The notes under the pieces are model-generated. The model was given only the letters and a program-made list of their open reading frames with translations. It ran no database searches and was not told the DNA's origin. A stretch of DNA of 34,091 bases from a virus: IMG/VR virus record IMGVR_UViG_3300021420_000092, positions 1 to 34,091 of that record. One strand, 5' to 3'. The position numbers were made by a program, and so were the translations under genes. Of this stretch, positions 2,602-19,606 are shown piece by piece. The stretch's first letter is position 1. Each line of letters begins with the position of its first letter.

Positions 2602-4335
2602 CTATCTAGGGCGTTTAAGGCGAGCTACCGCCGCAAGTTCTTGCGCATGCTGTGCATCTTCCGCCAATTGTTCAGCTTGCGGCAACCCAAGGGTCTCGAA
2701 GATGAATTTCGGAGGCAAAGCGCCCGTCTTCGAAAGCGCCATTACGAGATTTTTCATCATAGAGCTTGAAACCGCCTGTAGCGAAACTGCATCGAGTTCA
2801 AGATCGCATTCCGCTCCATCGGGAATCGGCAGCCACGAGCACGATTTCTGCTTTTTGCGCTCTGGCATGAGCATATCTTCTTGCCGTTTGAACCGGGCCA
2901 TCGTATAAAAAACCATTCGAGCAAGACGCTGATAACTTTCGGCGAGCAGACGAGCCTTCATCCGAACAAAGGTCTGCCCTTGAAATACCGCCGCATCGAA
3001 TAGTTCCGGTGAAATATTTCCTCCCCCGGATTGCCCCTGCCTCTCCGGGGTTGTGCCCGAATATCGAGCCACTTTTTGTAGCAACAGTTCCGGTATTTGC
3101 GTCATATGCTGCGGAATCTGCGGCGGCGAACTCATGGTCGGAGGCTTGTCGCCGTCGTAAACCTGCACTTCTCCAGGCAATCCACCGTAAGCGTCGATAT
3201 CGATATTCGAATCTCGGGGAATCCAGCATTGCACGTTATTCGTGCGGATCATGTTTTCGATGAGTTGCGTGTACATCCGTTCCGCAATATCCTGTGGAGA
3301 CTTAACGTACCGAACTGGAGGAGGACCGTACATGCTATCAAGGTGAGGCATAGACCACATGCCAATAAATGGGAAAGTTCCAAAATCATCTTCGGGAAGG
3401 CGAGGAATGAAATTCGGCCCATCGGCAAGAATGATTCCGTTGCACTCGACGATGAATCGGCCATTCGGGAATCTCCACTTAAATTTAGGCTGGACTACAA
3501 GTTCGAAGCCTTCTCCCGCTCGAACTCCCGCAATTTCTTCCACTCGGTCTCGGGCATAATCCTTAACCCAAGCGTACCGTACACGCACACGAGGTCCGTT
3601 CCTTTGATGCTCGAAACCTTCGGGGGCATCGATGCGCAGCGGCCCAGGCGGAAGTTCCATCCCGAGGTCGAATCTCGACCCTTCCATCTCGTTGTCTTCG
3701 TAATCGTCATAACCGCCGCCAATCTTGACGTACTTCCCCTTTTCCGGGAACATGCGCCGAATTTCATCGACGTAGAAGTACCGCTCCTTGATGACGTAAG
3801 CCCAGGTTCGGTCGTCCTTCGCGTGCGGGTCGGGGAAAATCGTCTCGGGATCATCGGCTGCAATCCAGGCCATTCCCTTGCCGCTTCGAGCGTCGGGAGA
3901 CCATCCCACTTGCAGATAGGCCGGATTCACGAATTGGGACCAGAGCACAGCGTCGAAGATTCGGTTATTGAACATCCCGAGACGCCAAGCTGCCGAAAAT
4001 GCCTTCTCTCGCTGTTCGTCCGCTTTCCCATTCACCGAGATATAGATACGTGGCGTATCATTAGTTAAATCAGTAGCTTCGCAGCACATTAGGAATTGCG
4101 CTTCGGGGAGGATGACGCGTGGCCGGAAGGAAGGGGTAGCTGCCGAGGGGTACACGTTCAAATTGTAGAAGTTCCGCATCTCCTCGGCATGGTTCGATCC
4201 CTGTTTTTGCTCCCGTTCGAGCTTCGACATTCTTTGTAATTCGTCAATTTGCTTCGATATTTTCTTGTCGCCGGGAAATGCGACAGTTTTATTCTCGGTG
4301 GTGATAAACGGTGCTTGGACAAAAGTTAGTGACAT
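2602..4335 (-). CDS. Phage portal protein
   Basis: 577 residues, a usual portal length. Portal proteins form the dodecameric ring at the capsid vertex through which DNA is packaged and ejected. The sequence has the general portal character: an acidic/aromatic N-terminal half with repeated short beta segments (RIYISVNG, FVNPAYLQVGW, DDPETIFPDP), then a helical C-terminal region rich in Gln, Met and Arg (VAAVFQ-like crown region near the end). It sits downstream of TerL on the same strand, the expected place. Its ATG lies inside the last codons of the HNH gene (10-base overlap), so translation is probably coupled. The call rests on overall resemblance and context, since portals have no short diagnostic motif. 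Confidence 0.8.
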   Translation of the reverse strand: MSLTFVQAPFITTENKTVAFPGDKKISKQIDELQRMSKLEREQKQGSNHAEEMRNFYNLNVYPSAATPSFRPRVILPEAQFLMCCEATDLTNDTPRIYISVNGKADEQREKAFSAAWRLGMFNNRIFDAVLWSQFVNPAYLQVGWSPDARSGKGMAWIAADDPETIFPDPHAKDDRTWAYVIKERYFYVDEIRRMFPEKGKYVKIGGGYDDYEDNEMEGSRFDLGMELPPGPLRIDAPEGFEHQRNGPRVRVRYAWVKDYARDRVEEIAGVRAGEGFELVVQPKFKWRFPNGRFIVECNGIILADGPNFIPRLPEDDFGTFPFIGMWSMPHLDSMYGPPPVRYVKSPQDIAERMYTQLIENMIRTNNVQCWIPRDSNIDIDAYGGLPGEVQVYDGDKPPTMSSPPQIPQHMTQIPELLLQKVARYSGTTPERQGQSGGGNISPELFDAAVFQGQTFVRMKARLLAESYQRLARMVFYTMARFKRQEDMLMPERKKQKSCSWLPIPDGAECDLELDAVSLQAVSSSMMKNLVMALSKTGALPPKFIFETLGLPQAEQLAEDAQHAQELAAVARLKRPR

Positions 4336-4931
4336 TCAAATTCCCTATAAATCCTCTTCCATGTCCTACCGATAAATATGTTCGATATGGCAGATGGAGT
4401 GACGCCAAATTTAGAAGCCAATAATGTCTGGCTGATCCCTTTGGTTTTATGGAGACTAATTATTTCGCGTACAGTATCGGAGGTTAGAACGGAATTCCAC
4501 ACACGCTCGCCGTAGACCGTTCTATTTTTCATTGCCGAATCGATACGATTATCGGCATCCGTGCCCAGAAATAAATCGTCAGGATTTACACATGGTGGAT
4601 TGTCGCATCGATGACAAATTAGTTTGTCATCTGGTAGAAATCCATAGTGCAGTCTAAAAGAAAATCTGTGGGCGTATATCAACTTTCCATTTTCATCTGG
4701 TAATTGACCATAACCAGCTTTACCCAATGTCCCTTTCCATATCCAGCAACTACCAATAGGACGATTGGGGACGTAATGCCAAAATCGCTCCTCTGGAGTC
4801 ATGGCTCCACATCTATGCCACATAGCGCATTTTATGGAACAGAATTTCCCTCTGCCGCGATTGACTTCGGAAACTAGAACTTCGATAGTTTTCTGGCAGG
4901 CGAGACACTGCCGTATTATAGTAGTTTTCAT
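4326..4931 (-). CDS. HNH homing endonuclease, free-standing
   Basis: 201 residues from the ATG at 4931, chosen because GAGGAAG lies 4 bases upstream and TGATG overlaps the previous stop. An upstream in-frame start would overlap the neighbour fully. Order: a zinc-type pair CLAC with C...C (about 9-35), then an HNH core: CWIWKG, AHRFSF, CHRCDNPPCVNPDDLFLGT, as in phage HNH homing nucleases. The C-terminus is a helix-turn-helix (SQTLLASKFGVTPSAISNIF) followed by RTWKRI, giving target recognition. It is wedged between a small zinc gene and portal and is visibly more A+T-rich than both, which fits a recent insertion. Homologous in plan to the broken HNH gene at 32998. Confidence 0.9.
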   Translation of the reverse strand: MKTTIIRQCLACQKTIEVLVSEVNRGRGKFCSIKCAMWHRCGAMTPEERFWHYVPNRPIGSCWIWKGTLGKAGYGQLPDENGKLIYAHRFSFRLHYGFLPDDKLICHRCDNPPCVNPDDLFLGTDADNRIDSAMKNRTVYGERVWNSVLTSDTVREIISLHKTKGISQTLLASKFGVTPSAISNIFIGRTWKRIYREFECH

Positions 4932-5092
4932 CACTTCCTCGCTTTCCGAAGTTCGAGCGGCGGTTTCCACTGCGGCACATTGACATAATGAACGTATCCC
5001 CGGCACCCGCAAATGAACTGTTGCTGCGTTTCGGTGCTAGTCGCAGTGTTCAATTGCATCGGACGCTGGCAGTAGGGGCACGTCGGAATCAA
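4931..5092 (-). CDS. Small zinc-ribbon protein, TTG start
   Basis: 53 residues with CPYC and CGC knuckles spaced like a zinc ribbon, then a basic tail (ELRKARK). The start is taken as TTG at 5092-5090: AAGGAG (5106-5101) lies 8 bases upstream, and TTGA overlaps the TGA of the preceding gene. A longer reading from 5149 is open but would overlap that gene by 61 bases. Small zinc ribbons of this kind in phages often bind nucleic acid or partner proteins, but no specific role can be given. Lies between TerL-side genes and the homing endonuclease. Confidence 0.7.
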   Translation of the reverse strand: MIPTCPYCQRPMQLNTATSTETQQQFICGCRGYVHYVNVPQWKPPLELRKARK

Positions 5093-6059: not shown

Positions 6060-8882
6060 TCACACTCCGACTAGTCTGTCACGATGTTTTGTTTTCGCGG
6101 CCTTCATAAACATAGTCATTTCACGGCGTATCATGCCAGAAATTTCCTCTTTTATGGGAATACCGGCAAGCATCTCCTTTGGATTCTGCGGGTCCATGAT
6201 ATTTTTCGGAGCGAACTTCATCCGGGGAGGAGGATATTGCTCGCGTGTCAAACAGGCAATCATCCAGGCTACGGCGATATCATCATGGTCGCGCTTTATT
6301 TCCCACCGCCATTCTTTGATTGTCATACCGCCAATTTGTCCCATTAAGGCTCGGTCATTCAATACCAAGCCTCCAGGCTGGAAATTCATGCCCATCCTGA
6401 TACCACTACGAGCAGCATCTACGATTAGTCGTCGCGTAGCTTGGTTCATTTCGAATCCAAGAGATATACTTCTTGTTTTCCCACGTCTGCGATCATCCCT
6501 TCCTTTCCATGTATAAATATTGGAGTATCTATATGTATCCCGCAAAACTTTGAGCGCCCATCGACCTAAATTCCCGGTCAATTCAATATTGACCATTGCG
6601 AGATTGTAGAAGTTCCCGCACATGTTAAGTTGCTCGGCTAGAATTTCAGGGGGCACTCTTTCCGCAAATCGACACGCGAGTTCCCCAGTTTCCCCGCATA
6701 AACAGCAATAAGCTGTGAAATCACCCTCCTCAGTTCCGAGAGCCGCATCTGCGCCAATGAAATAGTGCAATCCATCAGGTTTGTTGTTTTCGTTTACGGG
6801 ATATTTCCATAGGAATACAGGGCCGTTATCGTCTTTGTGAAATTCGATTTTAGCGTGAGGTGAAGGACGATAGAATTTTCCTCTTGCAATAGGTGGTCTA
6901 ATCGTCTTTTCACAGTATGCCAATTCTTCTCTCGGAAGCGCAGGATCGCCGCTGATTTGGAAGGCAACTTCCGGGCAATTATGTGTGATTAGTCCATTTG
7001 CATTGAAAAGATTATCTCCGGTAAGTCTGACATCGTAAACTTCCCGAAGACCAACACTTTCGATGGTCGATATCGTATCAGCTAAAATGATTGGTAGAGA
7101 TTTTCTTCCCAAATGTTTATAGGGAGCGCATACATTTTTCCGCTTACCAATAAATCCAATATCCTGATGATATCTAAGAGATTCACTAGCTCTCAGATAT
7201 AACCACCACCCTTCAAAAACCTTTCCTTCCCTTCGTGTACTGGCTCGTTTTATCGTGGATGTAACTCCAAATCCAAGGAGGAGAAGTTGAACTTCCTGCA
7301 CGAAACTCCGATATTGACTATAAAATTTTATACTATGGCCTTCCCATGCATTCCAACCATCGGCTTCGAATAATGAACGTATAAATTCTCGCACCACAAT
7401 CCTCGGAGATCGCCAAATACATTCTGGGACGCATACTTTTCTCATTGGGAGACGGTCGCCCCTTTTATCCAATCCAGTTGCACGAATTCCCAATTTCTCC
7501 ATAAGGCCAAGAAATGCTGGACGAGAAACTCTTATTTCGGTTGATCCAACCGAAGGATTTCTAGTTTGATGGCCTCCCAAAATTTTGTCAAAAAGGCGTT
7601 CAACATCCTCCACTACATCATCATCCTTCCTAGTGCAGCAAATCGATACTTGAGCACCATGATAACTACCATCTCCCATGAAATATCCGAGAAATCTTCC
7701 CCAATCTTCATCTATTACAAGATGGCATTTAACCCCACCAAAATCTTCCCATTGAACCAAATAATAGGATGGCGCAAAATCTAGAATTGAAAGAGGGATC
7801 GTATCCCCAACTTTTAGATCAGATACGCGAGTCAATTTACCGCTTAATAGTGGGAATAGATGTTCATCTGTAACATCTATTTCACGTCCCGAATTGAATG
7901 TTATCCTTTTTGTTGGTTGCTCCCCCTCATGGAACACACCGATTATATTTTTGCCGGAAACTCTATCATCCAACTTTAGTTCCGACAGATAAATAATCCC
8001 CCTGGATGTCTGAACTCTAGTATTCCCCGAAAGACAATGGGGAAAGTCCGTCAAAAAAGCAGTTTCCACGTTTCTGCAATCTTCCGCTTTGGTCCTTCGC
8101 ATCCATGCAATCTGTTCTCGCGTTGCGTTAAAGGGAGGAGCCATTAATTCTTTTTCAAGATCGTCCCGAGGAGCATCTTCGGCTTCTTCCTCTGGACGAA
8201 TGAAATCTGGGTCTTCGAGCCATGATGCAAAATTAGCAATATATCCATTTTTACCGGCTACGGCTTCGTTCCAATATTCGTAGAATGCTTCTCCGGGACC
8301 TTCGCGGCCATTCGCAGTCGATTCAATAACCACGATACTTCCTGGACCCTTAGAAACAGAAGAAATCATGGCGACGAAAATTTCAGGATCGTAATATTTA
8401 GCAGCTTCACTAAGTAGCAATCCCGAGAGCGTTCCCCCACGACCAGCAGCCGGGGTTCCGGCTGTAGCAATGGTCAAATGGCTATCGCCATTGCTATGTC
8501 TAAAATAAATTTTCTTTTGTTGGATGTCCTCTAGAGGAAATTGGGGGAATCCCCTAGAAAGATCGCTCGGCACTCGAAATAATTCTTCCGCGCTCGGAGC
8601 GAGATGCGCGACAATCTTCATATTCATATTCGGAAAGCCAAGTCCACGGCACCAAAGTAGCCCTGTTGTCTGCGAAGAAAATCCGACACGCCTAGCTTTC
8701 AAATCAATAATACGAATGTGTCCCTCACGCCTCCATTGTTCGCGCATTTTTTGCAACCTTCTCTCCTGACTTGGAAAGAAAGTAAATTGGGTCATGGCAT
8801 GAGTCTGCCGATTCTTAATTGGTAGACGCGATAGCAACGTGCGAGAACGATCCAGCCAAGTTGGGTCGTAAATCTTAGGCAT
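6060..8882 (-). CDS. terL: Terminase large subunit precursor containing an intein
   Basis: 940 residues as translated; 587 after removal of a 353-residue intein. The extein is a packaging ATPase-nuclease. A Walker A variant LKARRVGFSS lies near residues 61-70, a Walker B-like LLLSEAAKYY near 155-164 and a coupling-type segment IESTANG follows. After the intein comes CPEVAFQISGDP, matching the conserved CPEEAF-type segment, then the RNase H-like nuclease with acidic residues in FIGADAA, NIELTG and DHDDIAVAW. The ATG at 8882 is chosen over a GTG at 8903: it overlaps the previous stop by 8 bases, has GGGA nearby and avoids a 29-base overlap. Cleaves concatemers and drives DNA into proheads with portal. 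The small subunit is not recognised here. Confidence 0.93.
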   Translation of the reverse strand: MPKIYDPTWLDRSRTLLSRLPIKNRQTHAMTQFTFFPSQERRLQKMREQWRREGHIRIIDLKARRVGFSSQTTGLLWCRGLGFPNMNMKIVAHLAPSAEELFRVPSDLSRGFPQFPLEDIQQKKIYFRHSNGDSHLTIATAGTPAAGRGGTLSGLLLSEAAKYYDPEIFVAMISSVSKGPGSIVVIESTANGREGPGEAFYEYWNEAVAGKNGYIANFASWLEDPDFIRPEEEAEDAPRDDLEKELMAPPFNATREQIAWMRRTKAEDCRNVETAFLTDFPHCLSGNTRVQTSRGIIYLSELKLDDRVSGKNIIGVFHEGEQPTKRITFNSGREIDVTDEHLFPLLSGKLTRVSDLKVGDTIPLSILDFAPSYYLVQWEDFGGVKCHLVIDEDWGRFLGYFMGDGSYHGAQVSICCTRKDDDVVEDVERLFDKILGGHQTRNPSVGSTEIRVSRPAFLGLMEKLGIRATGLDKRGDRLPMRKVCVPECIWRSPRIVVREFIRSLFEADGWNAWEGHSIKFYSQYRSFVQEVQLLLLGFGVTSTIKRASTRREGKVFEGWWLYLRASESLRYHQDIGFIGKRKNVCAPYKHLGRKSLPIILADTISTIESVGLREVYDVRLTGDNLFNANGLITHNCPEVAFQISGDPALPREELAYCEKTIRPPIARGKFYRPSPHAKIEFHKDDNGPVFLWKYPVNENNKPDGLHYFIGADAALGTEEGDFTAYCCLCGETGELACRFAERVPPEILAEQLNMCGNFYNLAMVNIELTGNLGRWALKVLRDTYRYSNIYTWKGRDDRRRGKTRSISLGFEMNQATRRLIVDAARSGIRMGMNFQPGGLVLNDRALMGQIGGMTIKEWRWEIKRDHDDIAVAWMIACLTREQYPPPRMKFAPKNIMDPQNPKEMLAGIPIKEEISGMIRREMTMFMKAAKTKHRDRLVGV
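6978..8036 (-). mobile_element. LAGLIDADG intein inside TerL
   Basis: 353 codons in frame with TerL. N-terminal splice block starts at Cys1 (CLSGNTRVQT). Block B carries the TDEH motif with His59. LAGLIDADG motifs are LGYFMGDGS at intein residues 116-124 and SLFEADGW at 221-228, each with an acidic catalytic position. Block F/G is EVYDVRLTG ... NGLITHN, ending His-Asn, followed by the +1 nucleophile Cys of the extein. All residues for standard class 1 splicing are present, so both splicing and homing endonuclease activity look intact. It sits just before the conserved CPEVAF segment joining ATPase and nuclease domains. The DNA is visibly richer in A+T than the flanking extein. Confidence 0.95.
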
Positions 8883-9438
8883 TTTCCCGTTCGGCGGCAG
8901 CACGAGCTAGTTCGCGCTGATGTCGTTCTTGGATGACTTTTGCATTAAAAAGAATCACGCAATGCTCGCCGCAGCAGTATATTGTTGGAACTAAGCCGGT
9001 TGTCGGGTCTTTATAACTGTGGTCGGTATACTTCGGCTGGCCCTCGAAATGCTTGCCACACATAAAACAATCGTACCCGGAAGTTCTCTGCATCGACCGC
9101 GCATTCAGGATTTTACCGGCGTTCTCGAATTCCGATTTCAGGTGTGCATAGAATTGCTGTCCTTCGTTCATCGGGATGTGTTCCCAATCGACTTCGATGG
9201 TGATATGATCGACGAAATGGGATACGGGATATACCGGCAACGCTTCGGTCGGAATTACTTCATCCTTCACTTCGGCAACCATCGTTCCGCGTTCAATGGG
9301 GGCATTCATCGGAACTTTGGCCATCGCTTCTCGGAGGGCAGGATCGGCGGGAACTTGCTGCTTTTCGGCCTTGCGTTTGATCCAACTTTCCTTCATCTTT
9401 GCGGATTGTAAAGCGCGTGCCTCGGCTGTCATTGCCAC
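8875..9438 (-). CDS. Hypothetical protein with C-terminal zinc-type cysteines, 187 aa
   Basis: 187 residues from GTG at 9438, chosen because GGAGG (9451-9447) lies 8 bases upstream and the previous stop is 1 base before. ATG at 9432 is a close alternative. The N-terminal half is charged and helical. The C-terminal half has YDCFMCGKHF, a His-containing linker and YCCGEHC, which looks like a small zinc finger, then a basic helix (VIQERHQRELARAAAE). The gene immediately precedes TerL, the usual slot for a small terminase, and a DNA-binding finger would fit that role, but no TerS fold is recognised. Confidence 0.65.
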   Translation of the reverse strand: MAMTAEARALQSAKMKESWIKRKAEKQQVPADPALREAMAKVPMNAPIERGTMVAEVKDEVIPTEALPVYPVSHFVDHITIEVDWEHIPMNEGQQFYAHLKSEFENAGKILNARSMQRTSGYDCFMCGKHFEGQPKYTDHSYKDPTTGLVPTIYCCGEHCVILFNAKVIQERHQRELARAAAERENA

Positions 9439-9439
9439 G

Positions 9440-9763
9440 TCATTTTCCTCCACTAGCCGGGAATGAATACTCTGGTCGGCTAGACTCATATCGAATTTGT
9501 GCTTCCCGAGCGGCCTGCTTCTTCAAAAATGCCTGATAGCGTCCGGCGTTTTCATCTCGCTCTTTCGGGAATACGTTGATTGAGGAACAAGTTCGGCAGG
9601 TTAGAACGAAGACAGTATCGGTCTCTCGGGACACATAAACCGAAGATCGTTCACACGTTCCGGCTAAAGCATTTCCGCAGGTCGGCAATTCGGGCATCGG
9701 GAGAAAGATACGCCTATTCCCAACTTGAATGCAAGCCCGACAAAGAGTATCATGCCCAACCAT
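9440..9763 (-). CDS. Cysteine-rich hypothetical protein, 107 aa
   Basis: 107 residues from ATG 9763 (GTG 9772 is possible). Cysteines are CRAC near the N-terminus, then TCGNALAGTC and CRTC, a pattern that fits one or two zinc sites. The C-terminus is a basic helix (YQAFLKKQAAREAQIRYE). It is the promoter-proximal gene of the leftward packaging operon. No good ribosome site is seen before either start. The start region abuts the start of the divergent rightward gene at 9762, sharing a CATG. Confidence 0.6.
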   Translation of the reverse strand: MVGHDTLCRACIQVGNRRIFLPMPELPTCGNALAGTCERSSVYVSRETDTVFVLTCRTCSSINVFPKERDENAGRYQAFLKKQAAREAQIRYESSRPEYSFPASGGK

Positions 9764-9947
9764 GCGCGGCACTGAAACTATCGGACTTTGCCCAATTCAC
9801 AATCGCCCTATTCCTTGTTTGTCATGCAGGGCTGCCAAGGGTGGTCGAGTGTCGAGTCCGGCCAAGTCGGAAGCGAATCGAGCCAAGGCCAAACACGCAG
9901 CGAATGTTCGTTGGGGACGGAAGGAGACCGATCCTGCCGGGTTATAG
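9762..9947 (+). CDS. Small Cys/His protein, 61 aa
   Basis: 61 residues from ATG 9762; ATG 9729 gives 72 but would lie inside the divergent gene. The motif GLCPIHNRPIPCLSCRAAKGG has C-x2-H and C-x2-C, zinc-finger-like, followed by a basic Lys/Arg/Ala tail ending NVRWGRKETDPAGL. Such short Cys/His proteins are frequent in phage accessory blocks. No ribosome site is evident. First gene of a short rightward island between two leftward operons. Confidence 0.5.
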   Translation: MRGTETIGLCPIHNRPIPCLSCRAAKGGRVSSPAKSEANRAKAKHAANVRWGRKETDPAGL

Positions 9948-10341
9948 TGAAGCTTGTGTCTCGGGTCAACATGAGGCTTGCGTCGATCCTGATTGCCGCT
10001 GCCTTCATCATGCGAAAGTACAAGCTCTCATGCGTCCGAATGCCCAACTACCGATTAACTCGGAGAATCAATTCGTTTGCCCTCGATGCCAAACTAAACC
10101 AAGAAACGGAGACCTTTATTGCAGGGACGATGGGGAAAGGCTCGTAATACCGAAAAAGTGTGAATGTGGTCAGATTGGTGACAAATCGGATCGCTATTGT
10201 GGAAAATGCGGGAAGTCATTCGTAAGGCCGATTACACCCATTCCAGAACTGGAACTCTCCGAAGAGGAAATTGCGGCTATCGAAGCGAAGGCTCGAATGA
10301 GACCATCCGATGTCGAAGTTCCTCCGACTGAGGTTCACTGA
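9904..10341 (+). CDS. Multi-zinc-ribbon protein, about 135-145 aa
   Basis: The body is clear: CVSGQHEACVDPDCRCLHH, a Cys/His cluster known in many phage small proteins, then CPRC, YCRDDGER, and CECGQIGDKSDRYCGKC, making two more zinc ribbons, with an acidic C-terminal helix (LSEEEIAAIEAKA). The start is uncertain. ATG 9904 has no ribosome site and overlaps the previous gene by 44 bases. AAGGAG at 9921-9926 stands 7 bases before CTG 9934 and 4 before ATC 9931. Likely a nucleic-acid or protein adaptor; no specific function. Confidence 0.7.
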   Translation: MFVGDGRRPILPGYSEACVSGQHEACVDPDCRCLHHAKVQALMRPNAQLPINSENQFVCPRCQTKPRNGDLYCRDDGERLVIPKKCECGQIGDKSDRYCGKCGKSFVRPITPIPELELSEEEIAAIEAKARMRPSDVEVPPTEVH

Positions 10342-10965: not shown

Positions 10966-11640
10966 TTAGGTCCAAAGACAAGATTTTTGCTCGGGATGCC
11001 GGTCGAACGAGAGGCTACAGGCGTTGCATACCGTCCCTTCGCCGACGAGCACCGTGGACGTACTGCCGCACTTCGGGCATGGCTTGCCCATGTTCTTTCG
11101 GGTTCGGAAGTAGTAGTGGTAAAATACGCGATCTACATAATGTTCCGTTCTCAGAACGTCCCGAGCACGCATTCGGTCAGCCCATCGCTGATCTTCCCCG
11201 TGACCGCCCTCCATCGGCTCTAGGAGCGCCAAATCCCGGCGCATTGGGTTTATGTGTGAGATGTCCCGATAGAATCCAGTTTCGTCCTCGTACCAGGCGC
11301 CATATCGAAGGGAGTGATGCGTCAACTTCGGAAGAGGTTCCCCATCCACGTAACATTGGATATTAAATCCCACATAATCAACACCATCGAGGAGCGGTAG
11401 AATCGTCGAAATATATTCTGTACTCAGCAGGTCGTCGTCATCTAATTGGGCAATGTAGGCAGCTTCCGAGGAGCGCCGGAGCATATCCCGGTTCTCGCCG
11501 AGTGTATATTTCGGATCGCATGTTCGAACTCGAAGCGATACATTCGGATTACCGGCCATCTGTGGTTCGAGCGCAATGAACAGGCGACGAAGAAACTCCA
11601 CCCTCGATGGCATCGTGAGGACGAGCAACTCAAGTTTCAC
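10966..11640 (-). CDS. GT-A glycosyltransferase with C-terminal zinc ribbon
   Basis: 224 residues from GTG 11640, chosen because GTGA overlaps the upstream stop and CAAGG precedes it. A TTG-started longer form adds 8 unlikely residues. Begins with a short beta strand (KLELLVLTMPSR), then GENRDMLRRSSEAAYIAQL and a DDDDLLS acidic motif at the DxD position of GT2-like enzymes, which binds nucleotide-sugar and metal. After the catalytic domain comes CPKCGSTSTVLVGEGTVCNAC, a four-cysteine ribbon. The same ribbon ends the neighbouring gene. Last gene of the glycan operon. Donor and acceptor unknown. Confidence 0.85.
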   Translation of the reverse strand: MKLELLVLTMPSRVEFLRRLFIALEPQMAGNPNVSLRVRTCDPKYTLGENRDMLRRSSEAAYIAQLDDDDLLSTEYISTILPLLDGVDYVGFNIQCYVDGEPLPKLTHHSLRYGAWYEDETGFYRDISHINPMRRDLALLEPMEGGHGEDQRWADRMRARDVLRTEHYVDRVFYHYYFRTRKNMGKPCPKCGSTSTVLVGEGTVCNACSLSFDRHPEQKSCLWT

Positions 11641-12458
11641 CGGCAAAAGCCTTGGCCGCAACAATTGCAGGCAAACTTCCCGACTCCGACCGACACGGTC
11701 GATAGACTCTCACATCTCGGGCACATCCCGGCGCTTCGGATATTGCTATGCGGAGGACACCAGCCCTTCGTATCTTGTCGCTTGTCCATCAACTTCGCTA
11801 GTTTCTGAGCGTCACGCTGACGCTCGGCTTGCATTGCCGGGCTATAGTATAGAGTGTCGGGGTCATCCTCCCGGTGCCGTTGTAATCGGTCGGCGGTATT
11901 CTCATCGATCTCGGCCATCCCTTGCGAGAAATGATGATGCTCGATATTGAATGGCAGATAGCGACGGCGACCAATCATATTCGCCAGTTCGCAAAGCCAA
12001 GCATCACCAAAGTCACTACTAAAGTACGGTGCAATAAAGTAACCAAGGCAATCGACCCACTTTCGATGAACTCCCGCGTGCGGCCCAAAATTACTACCGT
12101 GTCCAAATCGGTCATTTCCGTGAACTAGCATAATTTTATCAGGGACTTCTGCAAATGCATTTTCGACCATCACATCCCAACCCTTGCTGGTCCAGACGGT
12201 ATCATCATTATTTTGGAAAACGATGTCTCCTGTACACGCTTCAAAACATTCATTCCAGCAAGCGGTGATCTTACGAATCCTGGGGCCAATAATTACCACT
12301 GCGCCGTCTTGCTCGGCTGATTTGGCGCTTTCTAAATCATCATCGTCAAATCGGGCTACAATTTCTACCGCATTCGTGGCCGTTTCTAGGATTGATTTGA
12401 CCATACGCGAGAATATTTTAGTACGTTTACGAGACGGAAGAAGCAAACTAATGCTCAT
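11637..12458 (-). CDS. GT2-like glycosyltransferase with C-terminal zinc ribbon
   Basis: 273 residues. Starts SISLLLPSRKR as GT2 enzymes do, with FDDDDLESA near 38-46 and VFQNNDDTVW near 79-88, the latter a likely DxD-type site. HGNDRFGHGSNFGPHAGVH and HHHFSQG may supply acceptor or metal residues. The tail CPRCESLSTVSVGVGKFACNCCGQGF matches the ribbon on the downstream glycosyltransferase in spacing and residues. ATGA overlap with the upstream gene and GTGA with the downstream gene. Substrates unknown; the shared ribbon suggests a shared partner or target, possibly nucleic acid. Confidence 0.85.
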   Translation of the reverse strand: MSISLLLPSRKRTKIFSRMVKSILETATNAVEIVARFDDDDLESAKSAEQDGAVVIIGPRIRKITACWNECFEACTGDIVFQNNDDTVWTSKGWDVMVENAFAEVPDKIMLVHGNDRFGHGSNFGPHAGVHRKWVDCLGYFIAPYFSSDFGDAWLCELANMIGRRRYLPFNIEHHHFSQGMAEIDENTADRLQRHREDDPDTLYYSPAMQAERQRDAQKLAKLMDKRQDTKGWCPPHSNIRSAGMCPRCESLSTVSVGVGKFACNCCGQGFCR

Positions 12459-13432
12459 GCCGACCTTCCGATTTCGTAGAAGGGTCTAACATTCGCCACA
12501 GAGAATGCCGCCCGAGCGATGGCTCGACTGTACATACTGCACGTCCTGGCGAATCCAATACTCGAAAAACAATTGTCGATGAAATCGCACATTGTATCGA
12601 AATTCTCTGTGTAGGTTCCGTTTCCGTTGATATAATCCTTGTAGTTGAGTCCCGGTAGGTCCCGAGCTACGACCGGCATACCGGCTGCCAAAGCCTCCGT
12701 GAAGGAAGTCGATAGCGGTCTCCCGGCTGCATTATCGAGATTCAGGAAGACCCGGTACTCGCTGTACATTTCGGCCATCTGTTTCGCGGTTTTAAATTCA
12801 GTCGCCCCATCGTGGTGATGGATTCTTCCGGGAAACCGTTCACTTAATTTCTCGAATAGATCGACGCCACAAACTGATTTGTCGAGCGGTCGCCAAAGGT
12901 CCTTCCCGGCGAGGACAAATAGCGCTTCTTCCCGACTGCCAGTCCATTCGCGCTCGAAGAACCAATCGCCGACCGGCACCGGAGCAAATTCGGCTTGGGG
13001 ATAGGCTGACTTCCAGGATGGGACAATGGACGGCATCCCGACCTTGATGGGCAGATTTTTAATCTTCTCCCGGTAGTTTGAAGGCAAGTAACCCGGGCCG
13101 TCGTACCAGCACACAAAGACCAGAATCGGACATTCGACCCGGTGACAATGGTTCTTCCAGTCGGCAGCATAATCGAAGGTCTCGACCGATTCGATCAACA
13201 GGTCAAACTTCGAGAAATCGCACTCAGAGTACGGCTTTTCCTCGAAATGGATATCGAGGCCCACTTCCTGCCACTCCTTGCCACGATCCTTGGCCTTTGC
13301 CAGATTCAGGATTCGCTTGTCCCAACTGTACAGTGCATCGCACTGGGGGCCGATGACGGTCAGACCGGGGAAGATAGCCGCCATTTTCTCGCAGAGTGCA
13401 GCTACGCAGGGGTACAATAAGGCTACGCGCAT
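12455..13432 (-). CDS. GT-B (GT4-like) glycosyltransferase
   Basis: 325 residues. Two Rossmann-like halves are visible. The C-terminal half carries RVFLNLDNAAGRPLSTSFTEALAAGMPVVARD, which matches the GT4 donor-binding segment with the E-x7-E style region and conserved Pro-Val-Val. The N-terminal half starts MRVALLYPCVAAL and includes FDLLIESVETF. Makes retaining glycosyl transfer from a nucleotide sugar in known families; sugar and acceptor unknown here. Coupled by overlaps on both sides (12458/12455; stop and start share 13432). Confidence 0.8.
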   Translation of the reverse strand: MRVALLYPCVAALCEKMAAIFPGLTVIGPQCDALYSWDKRILNLAKAKDRGKEWQEVGLDIHFEEKPYSECDFSKFDLLIESVETFDYAADWKNHCHRVECPILVFVCWYDGPGYLPSNYREKIKNLPIKVGMPSIVPSWKSAYPQAEFAPVPVGDWFFEREWTGSREEALFVLAGKDLWRPLDKSVCGVDLFEKLSERFPGRIHHHDGATEFKTAKQMAEMYSEYRVFLNLDNAAGRPLSTSFTEALAAGMPVVARDLPGLNYKDYINGNGTYTENFDTMCDFIDNCFSSIGFARTCSMYSRAIARAAFSVANVRPFYEIGRSA

Positions 13433-14064
13433 TAGAAAGAGAACACTTTCTGTGCCAGTCGTTTAACTGCAATCTCGCAGTATTTCTCTTCGATCTCGAT
13501 GCCGATAGCGCGACGGCCTAAATCTTTGGCTGCGCGGAGAGTGGTGCCGCCTCCCATGCATGGATCAAGCACTAGATCGAGTGGCTTAGTTCGCTTCTCT
13601 ATATGCTCGAATGCAAATCCTGCGCCCTGTCCCCATTCGTGATACAGCTTGTCCGCTTTTTCATTCGCCCACTCGGTGCATACCCACTCGAGGTCCTGCT
13701 GCCTGACTATTCCATTGGTCAACGCCAAAACTGGCTTCTCAGCGACCATGAGACACTTGTTCCACATTCTCGGATGGGCTCCATTGTGGTCGATGGTAAA
13801 CAACCAGAACCAATAGAGATAAGCGACCATCGCTGCTATATTTTCGGGAAGCATATCGCCTCCGCAGTACGCATAGCAGAAGCGTCTTTCCTTCAGAAGA
13901 TCACGCCCATGTTTAGCTATTTCTGAATAAATCCACAGCGATTCTCGATCATAGGGAGGGTCGGTCAAGATCAAGTCAACGGACTGCGGCTCGATCTGCG
14001 GCAGCACTTCCCTGCAATCCCCGTGGTAGATCGTGATTCCGTCCTCTTGGAAGTACGGTTTCAC
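13432..14064 (-). CDS. Site-specific DNA methyltransferase (N6-adenine/N4-cytosine type)
   Basis: 210 residues. Motif IV is DPPY at residues 35-38. The SAM-binding motif I follows near 167-175 (LDPCMGGGTT), then GRRAIGIEIEEKYCEIA. This IV-before-I order is the beta-class layout of PF01555 enzymes, which methylate the amino group of adenine or cytosine in DNA. No large target-recognition domain is present between the motifs (about 130 residues), so the site is likely short. No restriction enzyme partner lies next to it, which fits an orphan phage methylase protecting phage DNA. Its place inside a glycosyltransferase operon is notable. Confidence 0.92.
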   Translation of the reverse strand: MKPYFQEDGITIYHGDCREVLPQIEPQSVDLILTDPPYDRESLWIYSEIAKHGRDLLKERRFCYAYCGGDMLPENIAAMVAYLYWFWLFTIDHNGAHPRMWNKCLMVAEKPVLALTNGIVRQQDLEWVCTEWANEKADKLYHEWGQGAGFAFEHIEKRTKPLDLVLDPCMGGGTTLRAAKDLGRRAIGIEIEEKYCEIAVKRLAQKVFSF

Positions 14065-14771
14065 GTCAGTGTCTCCGCTAAATCGAGTTTGGCAAATCCC
14101 CAGTCCTCGTCATTCTTATATCCAACGAACCAATGGAGGTCGGAAGAGTGGATCGACATGCGCACTTTATGAATTGTACGGTCGTGCTCCTGATGGAAGA
14201 TCGGGCAGGGAAGTTCGACCTTTGGAATGCCCATAGACTCCGCATTCCATATAAGCAGCGAATCGATATGCGAATAACTGACAATATCGAGATACCCTCG
14301 GAGGTCGAACCACTTGTCCCGATGCATCAGAACGAAGTCTCCCGGCCCACTTGTAATCTGAACGAGTTTCCCGTCTTTGATATCATGTCTCGGAGCCTCG
14401 TAGCAGCAATGGTAATCGAAGTCGTACCCGAGACGTTCGAGCATTTCCTGCCCTAAAATGATGTCGGGATTCATCGATAAAATCCAGTTGCCGTGCGCCC
14501 TCCGAATGCCGACATTCTTGGCCCGATATTCGAAGAACGGAAGCCAGTCATGCCCATGCATCTGATTGTGCAATTCCCGTGAAACGGTAATAACCCGAAC
14601 GCCCCGTCGCCGGATCGTCGAGGCAAGCGGAGGCCGATCCTCGGGAGGATTCCATTCGACCATGATGATTTCGGCATCGGATGGAAGCGTTTCGAAGGAG
14701 CAGTTCATCCGGTCGATGAAGTCTCCGCAATGCCCATCGTTTCGGCCTGCACAGATGATACTCAGTTTCAT
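14061..14771 (-). CDS. GT2-like glycosyltransferase
   Basis: 236 residues from ATG 14771, which makes an ATGA overlap with the RNA ligase stop; an in-frame ATG 14786 is less likely. Starts KLSIICAGRNDGHCGDF, then EIIMVEWNPPEDRPPL, and RAKNVGIRRAHGNWILSMNPDIILG, where NPD sits at the DxD position. Later GDFVLMHRDKWFDLRGY resembles the acceptor part of GT2/galactosyltransferase-like enzymes. No zinc ribbon at the end, unlike two sister glycosyltransferases. Substrates unknown. Confidence 0.82.
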   Translation of the reverse strand: MKLSIICAGRNDGHCGDFIDRMNCSFETLPSDAEIIMVEWNPPEDRPPLASTIRRRGVRVITVSRELHNQMHGHDWLPFFEYRAKNVGIRRAHGNWILSMNPDIILGQEMLERLGYDFDYHCCYEAPRHDIKDGKLVQITSGPGDFVLMHRDKWFDLRGYLDIVSYSHIDSLLIWNAESMGIPKVELPCPIFHQEHDRTIHKVRMSIHSSDLHWFVGYKNDEDWGFAKLDLAETLT

Positions 14772-15472
14772 GGCGTCCAATTCCATACAGGATCAAGGCC
14801 AGAAACTTCCGGTAGATAGGCTCCGTCAACTTTAGTCGGACGAACGAACTTCGCCATGAAATCGAATTCACCTTTACGCTCAATCCTCCATACCATCCCT
14901 TCAACCGGATCAATGGCCCCATGAAATCCGTTTCTTCCGCCACGCTCCAATTCTTCAAATCCAAGTCCTACACAAATAGGACCGCCCTTCTGGATCACAT
15001 GCGCGAGCACAAAACGATCTTGTAGCTGTTCGATGGCCGAGTAGGGCAAGCGCCGGTCATCTTCCATGAGATCGAATACTACGAATGGCTCATGCGTGAG
15101 TTTATATCTAGTGCCGTGCGCTTGAGCAAGCCATTCTCCGACAATACGCTGGCCGGGCTGTAGCGCAGACCGAAAACGATCCTCATTCTTTCTAACCCAA
15201 TCAGCAAACCATTGATGCTGTATGAACTTGGAAGTTTGAGCGAGATACCCGGCACGGCCAAGAGCCAAAATATCATCTCCGATTCTTGCTACGCCGACGT
15301 TCGAACCGTCAAGTTTCTCCGTGCAGATTACAAGATCGTGACGGTCCCGTAACCGATTCGTGCAAATTTCTTCCTGTCCTTCGTGGCAATGGTGGTCCCC
15401 TGGTCCCATTCGGCTGTCCGGAAGATGCGGAATGCTGCCATAGTTTTTTCGGCCAAGGGGCTTCGTCGTCAT
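14768..15472 (-). CDS. RNA ligase, T4 Rnl2-like
   Basis: 234 residues. Nucleotidyltransferase motifs in order: I KLDGSN with Lys53 as the adenylylation site, GEWLAQAHGTRY (motif III-adjacent), FVVFDL (III/IIIa), EGMVWRIER (IV) and MAKFVRP (V). This fits the RNA_ligase PF09414 fold. It is short, ending soon after motif V, so it lacks the extra C-terminal domain of T4 Rnl2. In phages such enzymes repair RNA cut by host nucleases. No polynucleotide kinase is seen in the window. ATGA overlaps on both sides bind it into the glycan operon. Confidence 0.9.
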   Translation of the reverse strand: MTTKPLGRKNYGSIPHLPDSRMGPGDHHCHEGQEEICTNRLRDRHDLVICTEKLDGSNVGVARIGDDILALGRAGYLAQTSKFIQHQWFADWVRKNEDRFRSALQPGQRIVGEWLAQAHGTRYKLTHEPFVVFDLMEDDRRLPYSAIEQLQDRFVLAHVIQKGGPICVGLGFEELERGGRNGFHGAIDPVEGMVWRIERKGEFDFMAKFVRPTKVDGAYLPEVSGLDPVWNWTP

Positions 15473-16827
15473 CGGGTCGCAAGCCGGAGAGAGATATTAT
15501 CCGTGATCCAGTTGTGCAGATTCTTACGTGCTTGGAAAAGTTCTGCTGTAGTCATTGTCGGTAAGTCTAGAACCGTCGTTTTCGGGTCGTCATCCATCAA
15601 TTCCCACATCATAGAGAACTTATCCGGTGGGATAGAAACCCCGAATTTTTCGGGCGTGTTCCACACTTCACATCCAGGATACGGCTGGAACATATGCAAA
15701 CTGGCGGCATCCGGTCGGCAGGTGTCCAGCCAGTCCTGCATTTCCTGAATCGACTCCCAAGTTTCACCCGGAAACCCGATCAAAAGATAGGCCCGTGCCG
15801 AAATACCGGCCTCCTGGCAGATATGGATGCCCTTAGTATTCGCTTCTGGTGTAGTGCCCTTGTTCATGGCTCTCAGCATTCGGGCCGAGCCGTGCTCAAC
15901 GCCGAACCCAAGTTCCGTGCAACCGAGGCGAGCAAGGTCCTTGAACAGTTCCGGGTCGAACAGATTGACTCGGCTCCATCCACGCCACAACATACCGTAG
16001 TCGTGGAATAAGGCAGCTAATTCCCGGCATCGCTTGGCCTTGATGGTCAGCACATCGTCCCAAACCCGAAGTGCCGTTACTCCGATTTCGGCAAGGGCCT
16101 TCACTTCCGCTTCGATTTGGGCGAACGTTTCTTCCCGAAGTTTGGTCCTAGCATCCGCGCAAAAAGAGCAACCATACGGGCATCCTCTCGCTGTCCATAG
16201 GGACCCAATAGTTCTTTCAGCAGCATCGATAGATTGTCCGTGGATTGAGGCAACTTGTAGTCCTCCCTTCGAATAATTGGTCCAAAGGTCGTAAGCGGGA
16301 GTAGGCATCTTCGTAACATCGGGAAGCGGCGCAGAGGGATTATGTTGCATTCCGAACGGACCGAACCACGTCACTCCCGGCACTCTTGTTACATCGCCGC
16401 CCGCCTGCCATATATTACAGAACTGGACGAATGATTCCTCGCACTCGCCGGTCATCAGGAAGTCGAAACCTTCGAAATATTTCTTTTGCTTGAACTGAGC
16501 GTGCGGTCCTTCGATGATATACGTCACATGCGGCCCACCGGCTACTTTGACCTTGGCAGGCCATAGGGCGGCAAGTTGACCTCCAAACTCGGCATTCGGA
16601 GTAACAATCGAGACGCCAAGAATATCGCACGGCTCCATGAGATCAGGATCGACCTTAAGTTTATTTTCCAAGGCGTCGAATGTCGAGATACGGTGGCAGT
16701 CGATGATTTTGACTTCGTGGCCTGCTTCGCGGAGCGATGCAGCCAAGTAAAGTAATCCGAGCGAGGCATGGAGCGACGGATTAAAGAGCGCGAACGATGG
16801 ACCGCCAGCTAGGATGACTTTTGCCAT
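15469..16827 (-). CDS. B12-binding-type radical SAM enzyme
   Basis: 452 residues. Residues 1 to about 140 look like a cobalamin-binding Rossmann domain (SLGLLYLAASLREAGHEVKI; VAGGPHVTYI), though the base-off DxHxxG motif is not seen. The radical SAM core has CPYGCSFC with Cys216, Cys220 and Cys223 holding the 4Fe-4S cluster, then the GFGVEHGSARML and LIGFPGETWESI segments typical of this class. Such enzymes do methylations or rearrangements on unreactive carbons. This is uncommon in phages. The start follows AAGGG 9 bases upstream and the previous stop directly. The substrate is unknown; a sugar, lipid or base intermediate of this operon is possible. Confidence 0.9.
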   Translation of the reverse strand: MAKVILAGGPSFALFNPSLHASLGLLYLAASLREAGHEVKIIDCHRISTFDALENKLKVDPDLMEPCDILGVSIVTPNAEFGGQLAALWPAKVKVAGGPHVTYIIEGPHAQFKQKKYFEGFDFLMTGECEESFVQFCNIWQAGGDVTRVPGVTWFGPFGMQHNPSAPLPDVTKMPTPAYDLWTNYSKGGLQVASIHGQSIDAAERTIGSLWTARGCPYGCSFCADARTKLREETFAQIEAEVKALAEIGVTALRVWDDVLTIKAKRCRELAALFHDYGMLWRGWSRVNLFDPELFKDLARLGCTELGFGVEHGSARMLRAMNKGTTPEANTKGIHICQEAGISARAYLLIGFPGETWESIQEMQDWLDTCRPDAASLHMFQPYPGCEVWNTPEKFGVSIPPDKFSMMWELMDDDPKTTVLDLPTMTTAELFQARKNLHNWITDNISLRLATR

Positions 16828-17034
16828 CTAGGAATCCCTTCCATCAATGCTTTCCAGGCTTCCGTCTGGATTGAAGTTGAATCTAATCCATTGTTCTCCT
16901 GTATCCCGTTTCTCTAAAATCTCTATCGTCCCACTGCCATCATCATCGCGAGTTTTTGAAAAGCATTCTTCTAATGGTCGAATCTTTATTCCAGCACGAT
17001 TAAGCATATCGGCAACGATTTCTTTGTCCGTCAT
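16828..17034 (-). CDS. Hypothetical protein, 68 aa
   Basis: 68 residues, mixed: a short helix (DKEIVADMLNRAGIK) then beta strands (GTIEILEKR, QWIRFNFNPDGSLESID). The strand part resembles small phage proteins that form a beta-hairpin sheet, but no family is identified. It sits between the GT75-like gene (7 bases) and the radical SAM gene (adjacent) on the same strand. Confidence 0.65.
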   Translation of the reverse strand: MTDKEIVADMLNRAGIKIRPLEECFSKTRDDDGSGTIEILEKRDTGEQWIRFNFNPDGSLESIDGRDS

Positions 17035-17041
17035 ATATATT

Positions 17042-18067
17042 TCATCCGATCCTCTTTACGGCTTGTGACCACATGCGCATCAGTCTAGCCGTTTCGGAAT
17101 AAAATGGCGATGCTTGGCTTTCGACAAAGTCCGAAAGAGACAAATACGCTTCCTCGACCGTCGTGCCGGTCAATTTCGTTTCTATGAGTTTCGGGAGCAG
17201 TTCTTCGAGGAGTAGGATCGGCTCGATTTCCTTCTGTACATCCTTTAGGTAGACATGGGAGTTCCGGCGATGCGTGACCACCGGCGAGCCGAACCGGGCC
17301 GTCCAGCCCATGTGCTTTGCCACTTTGAGAGCGAAATATCCCTGGAAAATGTCACCGAATCGATCCATCATCGAGGTCATACGCACGAAGTAGTACGCGC
17401 CCATCAAATCCCGATGCACCGCTGTATTCTGTGAGTTGATCGGACACCAAGTTTCAGGTCCAAGTACTAATTCGCTAGAGCATCGGATTGCCTGAAATGG
17501 AAGATGTAGCCAACTCATCGCATCTAGATCGGGATCGCCAATCCACATCCCGGCGTTGATTCTAACGGTAGATTCGGTTAACGGTAGTTTTATCGACTTT
17601 GTTGTTCCCCTTGCAAAAAAAGGGAATCCTCTCGGATATTCGTATGGAGGAGCATCCAGTAAAGCGAGATTATTATACCAGTGTCCTTCTTTCTCATAGC
17701 CCACAGACCTTGAAAAACCGTACTCATGCGCCTGCAAGTAATCCTCATTCTCTGAGCAGTAGTTATCATCGTCGATGGACACAACCATTTCCGCTCCATC
17801 GGCAAGCGCCATCAGATAGCCGACATTGCGCCGATTGTCGGAGTTCTCTGGAATATCGTGCGAGCGGAATCCACTGTCATTTAGGAAATCAAACTGAGTC
17901 GTGAGTTCTGGGCAAAGCACGCCTTTTGGAATGTTAAATACAGGAGTTTTGCGATCAGGGATTAAGAAGATTGTCGCTTCACGCCCGAATTTCGCGAAGT
18001 TTCGGAGATAGCCGTCGAGGAGAACCGAACAGTCGTGGATTGTGGTGACGACAACGGCGGCTTTCAC
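17042..18067 (-). CDS. GT75/RGP-like (reversibly glycosylated polypeptide) protein
   Basis: 341 residues from GTG 18067 (GTGA overlap with the methyltransferase stop). Starts VKAAVVVTTIHDC. MVVSIDDDNYC matches the DDD motif of plant and bacterial RGP/UDP-arabinopyranose mutases, and VRINAGMWIGDPDLDAMSWL matches the family's GLWLNIPDYDA segment. Known members interconvert UDP-arabinopyranose and UDP-arabinofuranose, carrying the sugar on an arginine. Whether that arginine is kept cannot be told by eye. Length matches the family (about 350). It follows a sugar-dehydrogenase-like gene and a methyltransferase. A plain glycosyltransferase function remains possible. Confidence 0.75.
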   Translation of the reverse strand: MKAAVVVTTIHDCSVLLDGYLRNFAKFGREATIFLIPDRKTPVFNIPKGVLCPELTTQFDFLNDSGFRSHDIPENSDNRRNVGYLMALADGAEMVVSIDDDNYCSENEDYLQAHEYGFSRSVGYEKEGHWYNNLALLDAPPYEYPRGFPFFARGTTKSIKLPLTESTVRINAGMWIGDPDLDAMSWLHLPFQAIRCSSELVLGPETWCPINSQNTAVHRDLMGAYYFVRMTSMMDRFGDIFQGYFALKVAKHMGWTARFGSPVVTHRRNSHVYLKDVQKEIEPILLLEELLPKLIETKLTGTTVEEAYLSLSDFVESQASPFYSETARLMRMWSQAVKRIG

Positions 18068-18831
18068 GCTTTCACCGCACGGACGAGCAGGTGATGGCCG
18101 AGATATGGTTCGAGCCAGCAATGCGGTACTACATTCCACGGAAACGATTTCGTATACCGATGCTGCACGTAATCACGAACTCGCCACGGGAAAATGTGAA
18201 TCTTTCGAATCGATAAGACTCGAAATCCGCACGATTCGAGGAGATGCCGCGCCGAGCGTTCCGAGTACCAGCGAACCAGCGGACATCCCGCCTGCGCTTC
18301 CGGCTGAATCCCGAGCAGATGCTTTAGACTCCATCGAGCGTAGAGCATAACCCGAAGTTCGCCGCCCGGAGCGAGGCGTCGAGCCGCTTTCGTCAATACC
18401 ATTTCCGGGCGCGGCGTGTGATGCAGGACCCCAAACGAATAAATCAGGTCATACGGTCCATCGGGAAGGAACTTCTCCGCGTCGGCCAAATAGAAATTTA
18501 CCCGGTTGATGGAAATAAGATGGCCGAGTCCCTCCACATCGAATCGCTGCATGGCTATGATCCGACTACGGCTCGATAGTTCAACGGCATCGACCAAGGC
18601 TCCCGAGCTTGCGAACTTCAACGTATCGGTGCCGATTCCACAGCCGATTTCTAGAACCTTTTTGCCATCCCACTTTTTGAAATCCGCGAAGGCAGGGATA
18701 TGCGATTCGACGAAATAGCGACGCTCCGATACTCCATGCGACCAAAAGGCGGTTCCGACTTCGCCTTCGCCATGTCGAATGTTGCAAGGGCTGGCGTTCC
18801 AGTAGGCTTCGATCTCAGAAATCTTCGTCAT
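18064..18831 (-). CDS. Class I SAM-dependent methyltransferase
   Basis: 255 residues. N-terminal signature WNASPCNIRHGEGEVG ... GVSERRYFVESHIPAFADF, then SAM motif I VLEIGCGIGTD at about 59-69, an acidic motif II (VDAVELS) and YSFGVLHHTPRPEMVL. Family members with the WNxxPCNIRH opening are common beside polysaccharide genes and act on small molecules or lipids/sugars. The C-terminal third (VRWYSERSARHLLESCGFRVLSI) is the usual cap. Overlaps the upstream gene by 17 bases and the downstream by 4. Target unknown; a sugar methylation is plausible. Confidence 0.88.
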   Translation of the reverse strand: MTKISEIEAYWNASPCNIRHGEGEVGTAFWSHGVSERRYFVESHIPAFADFKKWDGKKVLEIGCGIGTDTLKFASSGALVDAVELSSRSRIIAMQRFDVEGLGHLISINRVNFYLADAEKFLPDGPYDLIYSFGVLHHTPRPEMVLTKAARRLAPGGELRVMLYARWSLKHLLGIQPEAQAGCPLVRWYSERSARHLLESCGFRVLSIRKIHIFPWRVRDYVQHRYTKSFPWNVVPHCWLEPYLGHHLLVRAVKA

Positions 18832-19606
18832 AGATCATCGCATTGATCGAATCGGCGGCTATCGAAAGATGCGCCTCGATTCCCACTTGTTCGGCAACGT
18901 ACTGAAACATCCGGTTATCCCTATCGAGACAAGGTCCAGCATACGGCCATCCCGGTTTGAGATACCGATTGTTAATCCGAGGATCGGTTCCGACTGCATC
19001 CATGATCTTTGCGGAATCGGCCCCAAGTTTCCGGGCCACGAGATGCAGTTGATTCGCAAGTGAAATCTTCATGGTTAGCGCACAATTGAGCGTGATCTTG
19101 GCAAGTTCGGCCTCGATAAGCGACATTCGCTTGACCGGGGCATCCGAAATCTTCTCGTAGATTCTCTCGACTCGGTCTCCGGCTTCTTTTCGATGCTCGC
19201 CGATTAGCACAAAGGACGGTGCCCGGAGATCGGCTTCGACGTATTCCAGGCGAATGAATTCCGGCTTGTAGACCACGTTTTCGCCGACTATCTCTCGAAA
19301 CTGGTCGCAGCTTCCCGGCGTTGTGGTGCTGGTGATGATGTACAGATAATCCGGCTTCATGGCAATCGAGCGTTTGAATTTGCCGAGCGCGTCGAGCAGG
19401 CAATCGTTCGAGAAGGACCCGTCTTCCTTCGATGGGGTCGGCACAATGAAGATCGCGGCGTCCGTCCGATCCACCGCCTGTTCGAGACTCACCTCGGAAT
19501 CCTTGGGGATATGATCGTAACCGAAGGCTCGGAAGCCCTTCTCCCGAAGCATGCCGAGGATGGGACGCCCGACTTTGCCGAGTCCGACGACGCAGATTCG
19601 TTCCAT
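18815..19606 (-). CDS. Short nucleotide-sugar dehydrogenase-like protein
   Basis: 263 residues, about 60% of a UDP-glucose/GDP-mannose dehydrogenase. NAD-binding VVGLGKVGRP, then the central helical domain with AELAKITLNCALTMKISLANQ (Lys and Asn kept) and RINNRYLKPGWPYAGPCLDRDN, equivalent to GGSCFPKD: the catalytic Cys is present but Lys is Arg. The C-terminal UDP-binding domain is absent. The family oxidises a nucleotide sugar to its uronic acid. Missing that domain means it may use another substrate or pair with another subunit. GAGG is 6 bases before the ATG. First gene of the glycan operon. Confidence 0.85.
   Translation of the reverse strand: MERICVVGLGKVGRPILGMLREKGFRAFGYDHIPKDSEVSLEQAVDRTDAAIFIVPTPSKEDGSFSNDCLLDALGKFKRSIAMKPDYLYIITSTTTPGSCDQFREIVGENVVYKPEFIRLEYVEADLRAPSFVLIGEHRKEAGDRVERIYEKISDAPVKRMSLIEAELAKITLNCALTMKISLANQLHLVARKLGADSAKIMDAVGTDPRINNRYLKPGWPYAGPCLDRDNRMFQYVAEQVGIEAHLSIAADSINAMIYDEDF

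Follow-up and report, generated by a model that had tools for sequence, protein, structure and literature searches.

A conserved phage glycan cassette with a predicted GDP-sugar furanose mutase

Phages carry glycosyltransferases (GTs), and we know of few phage sugar-supply pathways with a predictable product. Which sugar, then, is handled by an eleven-gene cassette of an uncultured soil phage that combines GTs with putative sugar-making and sugar-tailoring enzymes, and what does that sugar decorate? The cassette lies in a 34,091-base virus record (IMG/VR IMGVR_UViG_3300021420_000092), here called the window, and it is an unusual, conserved phage glycan cassette. It is predicted to encode a soluble pathway in which a sugar linked to guanosine diphosphate (GDP) is ring-contracted to a furanose, tailored and attached, most likely to a virion protein; we give this reading a probability of roughly 0.5.

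The eleven open reading frames (ORFs) are all transcribed from the minus strand and span positions 19606 to 10966. Two start codons were corrected by alignment to relatives, such that GT75 begins at GTG 18067 (341 amino acids, aa) rather than 18139 and the last ORF at GTG 11640 rather than 11664. With these starts the successive junctions are -17, -4, +7, 0, -4, -19, -4, -1, -4 and -4 nt, the spacing pattern expected of an operon with translational coupling. A preliminary description of this DNA gave the same count and strand, and its overlaps of 1-17 bases are replaced by measured spacings of -19 to +7 nt. The genes, in order of transcription, are as follows.

18815-19606 (-): truncated nucleotide-sugar dehydrogenase, 263 aa (PF00984 5.6e-24, PF03721 1.6e-12)
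18064-18831 (-): S-adenosylmethionine (SAM) methyltransferase (Methyltransf_23), 255 aa (PF13489 1.2e-18)
17042-18067 (-): GT75/RGP protein, MtdL-type nucleoside diphosphate (NDP)-pyranose mutase, 341 aa, GTG start (PF03214 E 6.4e-14)
16828-17034 (-): accessory 68-aa ORF of unknown function, shared with relative G003 only
15469-16827 (-): B12-binding radical SAM protein, 452 aa (PF04055 1.8e-19, PF02310 4.1e-10)
14768-15472 (-): accessory RNA-ligase-family protein, 234 aa, KLDG motif (PF09414 2.1e-18)
14061-14786 (-): O15, GT-A-fold glycosyltransferase, 241 aa (assigned from a structure model; no Pfam match)
13432-14064 (-): accessory N6/N4 DNA methyltransferase, 210 aa (PF01555 2.4e-17)
12455-13432 (-): O13, GT-B/GT4-like glycosyltransferase, 325 aa (weak PF13692 4.4e-4)
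11637-12458 (-): O12, GT2-like glycosyltransferase (PF00535 7e-4, phrog_14945 1.8e-23)
10966-11640 (-): O11, GT2-like glycosyltransferase, GTG start at 11640 (phrog_14775 1.9e-30)

In the proposed pathway a GDP-linked six-carbon sugar of the GDP-L-fucose or GDP-L-galactose type would be drawn from the host pool, and GT75 would contract its pyranose ring to a furanose through a covalent arginine-sugar intermediate and with Mn2+. The truncated dehydrogenase would oxidise the sugar or growing glycan, which the B12-radical-SAM protein and the SAM methyltransferase would tailor; two GT2-type enzymes, one further GT-A and one GT-B enzyme may then assemble and attach the glycan, with a phage virion protein as the most likely acceptor. 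Families, catalytic residues, operon structure, conservation and block swaps were obtained with computational tools, and we infer the substrates, the order of steps, the acceptor and the benefit.

The phage GT75 is a predicted GDP-sugar furanose mutase of the GDP-L-galactose/GDP-L-fucose type. A profile built from seven phage GT75 sequences hits MtdL (7xpr) at 7.6e-87, as against 2.1e-9 for the uridine diphosphate (UDP)-arabinopyranose mutase 8cid, and identity to MtdL is ~46% over aligned positions. In the A201A pathway MtdL produces GDP-L-galactofuranose; both MtdL and Hyg20 interconvert GDP-L-fucopyranose and GDP-L-fucofuranose (PMC9937993). The MtdL residues important by mutation or structure, and the base selectors at positions 13, 42 and 86, were taken from the same study (PMC9937993). 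In the seven phage rows D87, D109-D111, N112, R159, D195, S228, Q229, R257, D260, H287, R289 and H292 are invariant, and the mutationally tested catalytic and Mn2+ residues of MtdL, including the DXD motif, Arg159 (its proposed nucleophile; PMC9937993), Asp195, Asp260 and His287, are all kept. The base selectors Thr13 and Ser86 are of the GDP type in all phage rows and the Asn42 site is Lys in all clade rows; the UDP-type residues Pro, Asp and Asp at 13, 42 and 86 are absent, with Thr, Lys and Ser present in every phage row. A further 20 GT75 homologues all have Thr13, and Lys42 occurs frequently in them.

Sugar-supply genes also lie close to GT75 homologues elsewhere. A GDP-mannose-3,5-epimerase homologue is near GT75 in L042, L050, L054, L059, L064 and the cultured Synechococcus phage Sf-CH5, an association counted with no chance-rate control. 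The L042 epimerase gene is 1 nt from GT75 and its product gives 5e-96 with 2c59, an enzyme of solved structure; identity to this copy is 39-44% in L050, L054, L059 and L064 and 56% in Sf-CH5. The GT75 of L059, which is of the Lys42 type, sits 60 bp from the epimerase homologue gene. In the 119-kb phage contig L033 the gene order is radical SAM, GT75, a sugar C-methyltransferase (PF08484) and a GDP-mannose 4,6-dehydratase (TIGR01472 5e-80). Because of the MtdL-type match, the selectivity residues and these neighbouring GDP-sugar genes, the predicted products are GDP-mannose-derived furanoses and not UDP-pentoses. With the search terms used, no literature on phage GT75 or GDP-furanose was found.

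Relatives were collected from scans of viral contigs and gene presence was scored by tblastn. Twelve scorable clade contigs (G001-G011 and the L028 contig) hold the cassette core, with L072 being a fragment; several are ~55 kb in length, and terminal repeats of 127, 90 and 127 bp indicate that G001, G002 and G004, respectively, are circular, complete assemblies. The occurrence of orthologues in these relatives shows that the cassette is not a chance array, its gene order is kept in the clade, and it adjoins the terminase-portal module. The radical SAM, O13, O12 and O11 genes are each present in 12/12 contigs, GT75 and O15 in 10/12, the methyltransferase in 9/12 and the dehydrogenase in 8/12 (unscorable in G007, which starts inside the methyltransferase), as compared with 2/12 for the RNA ligase and 1/12 for both the DNA methyltransferase and the 68-aa ORF. 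Identity across the clade is 82-97% for the radical SAM protein; between the window and G002, G004, G005 and G006 it is 84-88%, a closer match than that of the terminase (67-81%). The annotated phages searched include no near match to the window, no near relative of the 10-kb region and no relative of the portal.

The preliminary description of a phage-borne glycan operon thus survives, since its GT75 and dehydrogenase calls hold in profile searches and the gene order is conserved in a phage clade; its B12 radical SAM and SAM methyltransferase calls are likewise borne out. Its five GT-like genes, however, become four besides GT75 (O15, O13, O12 and O11), since two of the ORFs are the RNA ligase and the DNA methyltransferase, neither of which it had named.

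The dehydrogenase retains the nicotinamide adenine dinucleotide (NAD) and central domains and the catalytic Cys226 (GPCLxRDN), and has no C-terminal (third) nucleotide-binding domain, a truncation shared by its relatives. It scores 157.2 bits with TIGR03026, below the cut-off of 189.8, and its Protein Data Bank (PDB) matches include UGDH (3vtf, 3.6e-30) and GDP-mannose dehydrogenase (1mfz, 4.1e-28). The SAM methyltransferase is full length in all six of the first relatives (55-92% identity). The radical SAM protein passes the Pfam cut-offs for both of its domains and has CxxxCxxC at GCPYGCSFC. Its nearest B12-dependent methylase families are PhpK (122 bits) and ApyD (119 bits), far below their cut-offs, and none of the named B12-radical-SAM equivalogs (PhpK, ApyD, AprD4 etc.) reaches its threshold, the best being 122 bits against 600. 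Separately, the radical SAM gene of contig L033 (L033:8471-10888) has, by eye, an apparent intein-like insertion (RGC/IVAGTLVTLHDG) at the first 4Fe-4S cysteine.

Among the four GTs, O15 has an AlphaFold2 model with a GT-A fold (predicted local distance difference test, pLDDT, 78.6; predicted template modelling score, pTM, 0.83), for which Foldseek matches include 6p61 (2.2e-9) and the WrtF fucosyltransferase (3.8e-8). The model of O13 is of low confidence (pLDDT 65.7) and matches GT4-type GT-B enzymes (7mi0, 3.7e-7). PHROGs labels both O12 and O11 as glycosyltransferases, and O11 contains DDDD and GEDxRW motifs; in L090 the two are fused into a single ORF, followed by a dehydrogenase. The RNA-ligase gene is apparently a recent arrival, as it is shared only by G001 and G003, in which the copies are 100% identical at the DNA level, and is absent from other relatives. 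A 211-aa product beside the dehydrogenase in the G006 cassette (L019:7209-7844, minus strand) had looked like a possible DNA transglycosylase; it matches only phrog_15826 (unknown function), with no PDB match, and was given no weight.

Two of these enzymes vary in blocks. The GT75 proteins of the window and G003 are 99% identical over residues 1-102, 39% over 103-205 and 99% over the remainder; over the same three blocks the values are 70, 96 and 86% for the window and G002 and 72, 34 and 98% for G002 and G005. The swapped block runs from immediately behind DDDN to the vicinity of WCPINSQN; it includes the catalytic Arg and Asp, which are constant throughout. In the N-terminal (donor) half of O12 any two clade members share only 42-69% identity, whereas the following half is 93-97% identical in the pairs window/G003, G009/G010 and G005/L028 despite their divergent donor halves. 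A DNA-level tile comparison agrees with these swaps. From their positions in the MtdL and GT2 folds, the swapped parts would set the choice of sugar and, with recombination exchanging them, relatives therefore probably display different sugars. That the sugar-handling parts of two enzymes are exchanged between near-identical flanks suggests selection to vary the glycan. Single contigs might show this pattern through chimeric assembly, although it recurs in several contigs from different samples and the reading frames stay open. In G003, HNH/AP2 endonuclease genes (L020:8130-8591 and 9732-10256) are interspersed with those for glycosyltransferases, and these endonucleases may drive gene conversion. 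A larger and rather doubtful proposal is that the phage varies its own virion glycan much as in antigenic variation, with homologous recombination between conserved motifs swapping the sugar-facing furanose-mutase block and the GT donor half to give a lineage-specific coat of B12-radical-SAM-tailored, GDP-derived furanose.

A virion protein is the favoured, still unproven, acceptor: no cassette protein has a convincing membrane span by hydropathy, and in the distant phage L089 an O11-O12-radical SAM-dehydrogenase set overlaps, by 4 nt at its end, an SU10-type head-tail adaptor gene. The preliminary description held virion and host surface to be equally open, and these observations sharpen the choice towards the virion. 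A Ser/Thr-rich 914-aa protein beside the cassette in G006 (recognised by eye; no Pfam match) could be the acceptor.

The best-surviving alternative, although somewhat unlikely, is that the cassette remodels the host surface during infection, altering lipopolysaccharide or exopolysaccharide, for example against superinfection. The mixture of GT2, GT-A, GT-B and nucleotide-sugar genes does resemble O-antigen pathways, but the cassette is without a membrane-spanning flippase, polymerase or glycosyltransferase, and hydropathy reveals neither the membrane flippase nor the membrane-spanning transferase of Gtr-type O-antigen conversion among its proteins. In keeping with a surface role, the Sf-CH5 GT75 has neighbours annotated as heptose/phosphoheptose genes and as glycosyltransferases, and the related set of L090 lies close to a polysaccharide deacetylase and a pyruvyl transferase.

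Glycosylation of modified bases in the phage's own DNA, as in RB69 (arabinosyl-hydroxymethylcytosine) or T4, was also raised by the preliminary description and appears distinctly improbable. DNA is a frequent target of phage GTs (PMC6024577, PMC12838424), a DNA methyltransferase lies inside the window's cassette, and both O12 and O11 end in Cys-rich, zinc-ribbon-like tails. That methyltransferase, however, has a counterpart in one relative only (G005, 44%), and the proposed RB69 route names neither a mutase nor a dehydrogenase (PMC6024577). A thymidylate-synthase-type hydroxymethylase is present in 0/10 clade records (three of them circular), TET/JBP in 0/7 records searched and a C5 methylase in 1/10; none of the three occurs among 25 of the 29 Pfam families matched by a set of 99 non-virion proteins from four relatives. 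As the relatives are without TET or thymidylate-synthase-type hydroxymethylase genes, arabinosyl-hydroxymethylcytosine-type decoration is unlikely. The weakest alternative, the UDP-pentose supply of the preliminary description, would have the dehydrogenase making UDP-uronate for conversion to UDP-arabinose and GT75 making UDP-arabinofuranose. Although the dehydrogenase is a member of the UDP-glucose/GDP-mannose dehydrogenase family, and the plant UDP-arabinopyranose mutases are GT75 enzymes, this reading is hardly credible given the MtdL-type sequence and base-selectivity residues, the GDP-sugar genes near GT75 homologues, the lack of a decarboxylase and an epimerase in the cassette, and a dehydrogenase and GT75 that do not always co-occur.

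Several points weigh against the GDP-furanose pathway with a virion acceptor. Catalysis and acceptor are predictions; the dehydrogenase scores about alike to UDP-glucose and GDP-mannose enzymes; and the third base-selectivity site is Lys in phage GT75 and Asn in MtdL. The absence of GT75 from two clade contigs and of the dehydrogenase from at least three implies that some members do without a furanose. The proximity to virion genes may reflect nothing more than position, a small plus-strand block separates the cassette from the terminase genes in the window, and the virion genes beside the distant L090 and L049 cassettes were judged by eye and have no Pfam match.

Elsewhere in the window, the terminase large subunit (6060-8903, minus strand, 947 aa; phrog_2 1.4e-21) contains an intein with a LAGLIDADG endonuclease; 947-aa forms are also present in G001 and G003, and the terminases of G002, G004, G005 and G006 are 596-611 aa. 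An HNH endonuclease gene (4326-5012, minus strand) adjoins the portal gene, and a 781-aa protein (250-2595, minus strand), of which the six first relatives have no homologue, weakly matches GDSL lipases (E 0.01). The plus-strand region includes an ERF-family recombinase (29324-30130; PF04404 1.6e-7). Sigma-70 promoter and terminator matches are at chance level only. A known defence system was considered and set aside, as the PADLOC matches were confined to generic methyltransferases and radical SAM proteins; one protein from the non-virion region of G001, G002, G004 or G006 matches Acb2_Tad1_hairpin (8.8e-8) and is a possible inhibitor of the cyclic-oligonucleotide-based antiphage signalling system (CBASS).

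Should the phage GT75 make GDP-furanoses, donors of this kind would be obtainable from phages, and UDP-arabinose would be eliminated as the sugar supplied. The location of the swaps, in exactly the sugar-handling parts of two enzymes, points to the glycan as the object of selection and is relevant to the role of phage glycans.

Four known systems offer comparisons. The sugar-modified cytosine of RB69 and Thanatos (PMC6024577, PMC12838424) similarly involves a phage-encoded sugar supply and transferase, but the sugar-supply enzymes differ and no hydroxymethylase was found here in ten clade records. The plant UDP-arabinopyranose mutases, or reversibly glycosylated polypeptides, share the GT75 family, catalytic arginine and DXD motif, although their profile match is much weaker (see above) and the phage proteins are without the UDP-type Pro/Asp residues (PMC9937993). 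In mycobacteriophages, phage-encoded GTs decorate virion proteins (Freeman et al. 2023, as relayed in PMC12619734); in the present system virion glycosylation is a prediction, and a whole putative set for making and tailoring the sugar comes in addition. The closest likeness is to MtdL and Hyg20 of the A201A and hygromycin A pathways (PMC9937993), with which phage GT75 has in common the level of identity given above, the tested catalytic and Mn2+ residues and T13/S86, and from which it differs in being phage-borne, in being surrounded by an array of GT genes and a B12-radical-SAM gene, in having Lys at the Asn42 site and in having a swapped middle block.

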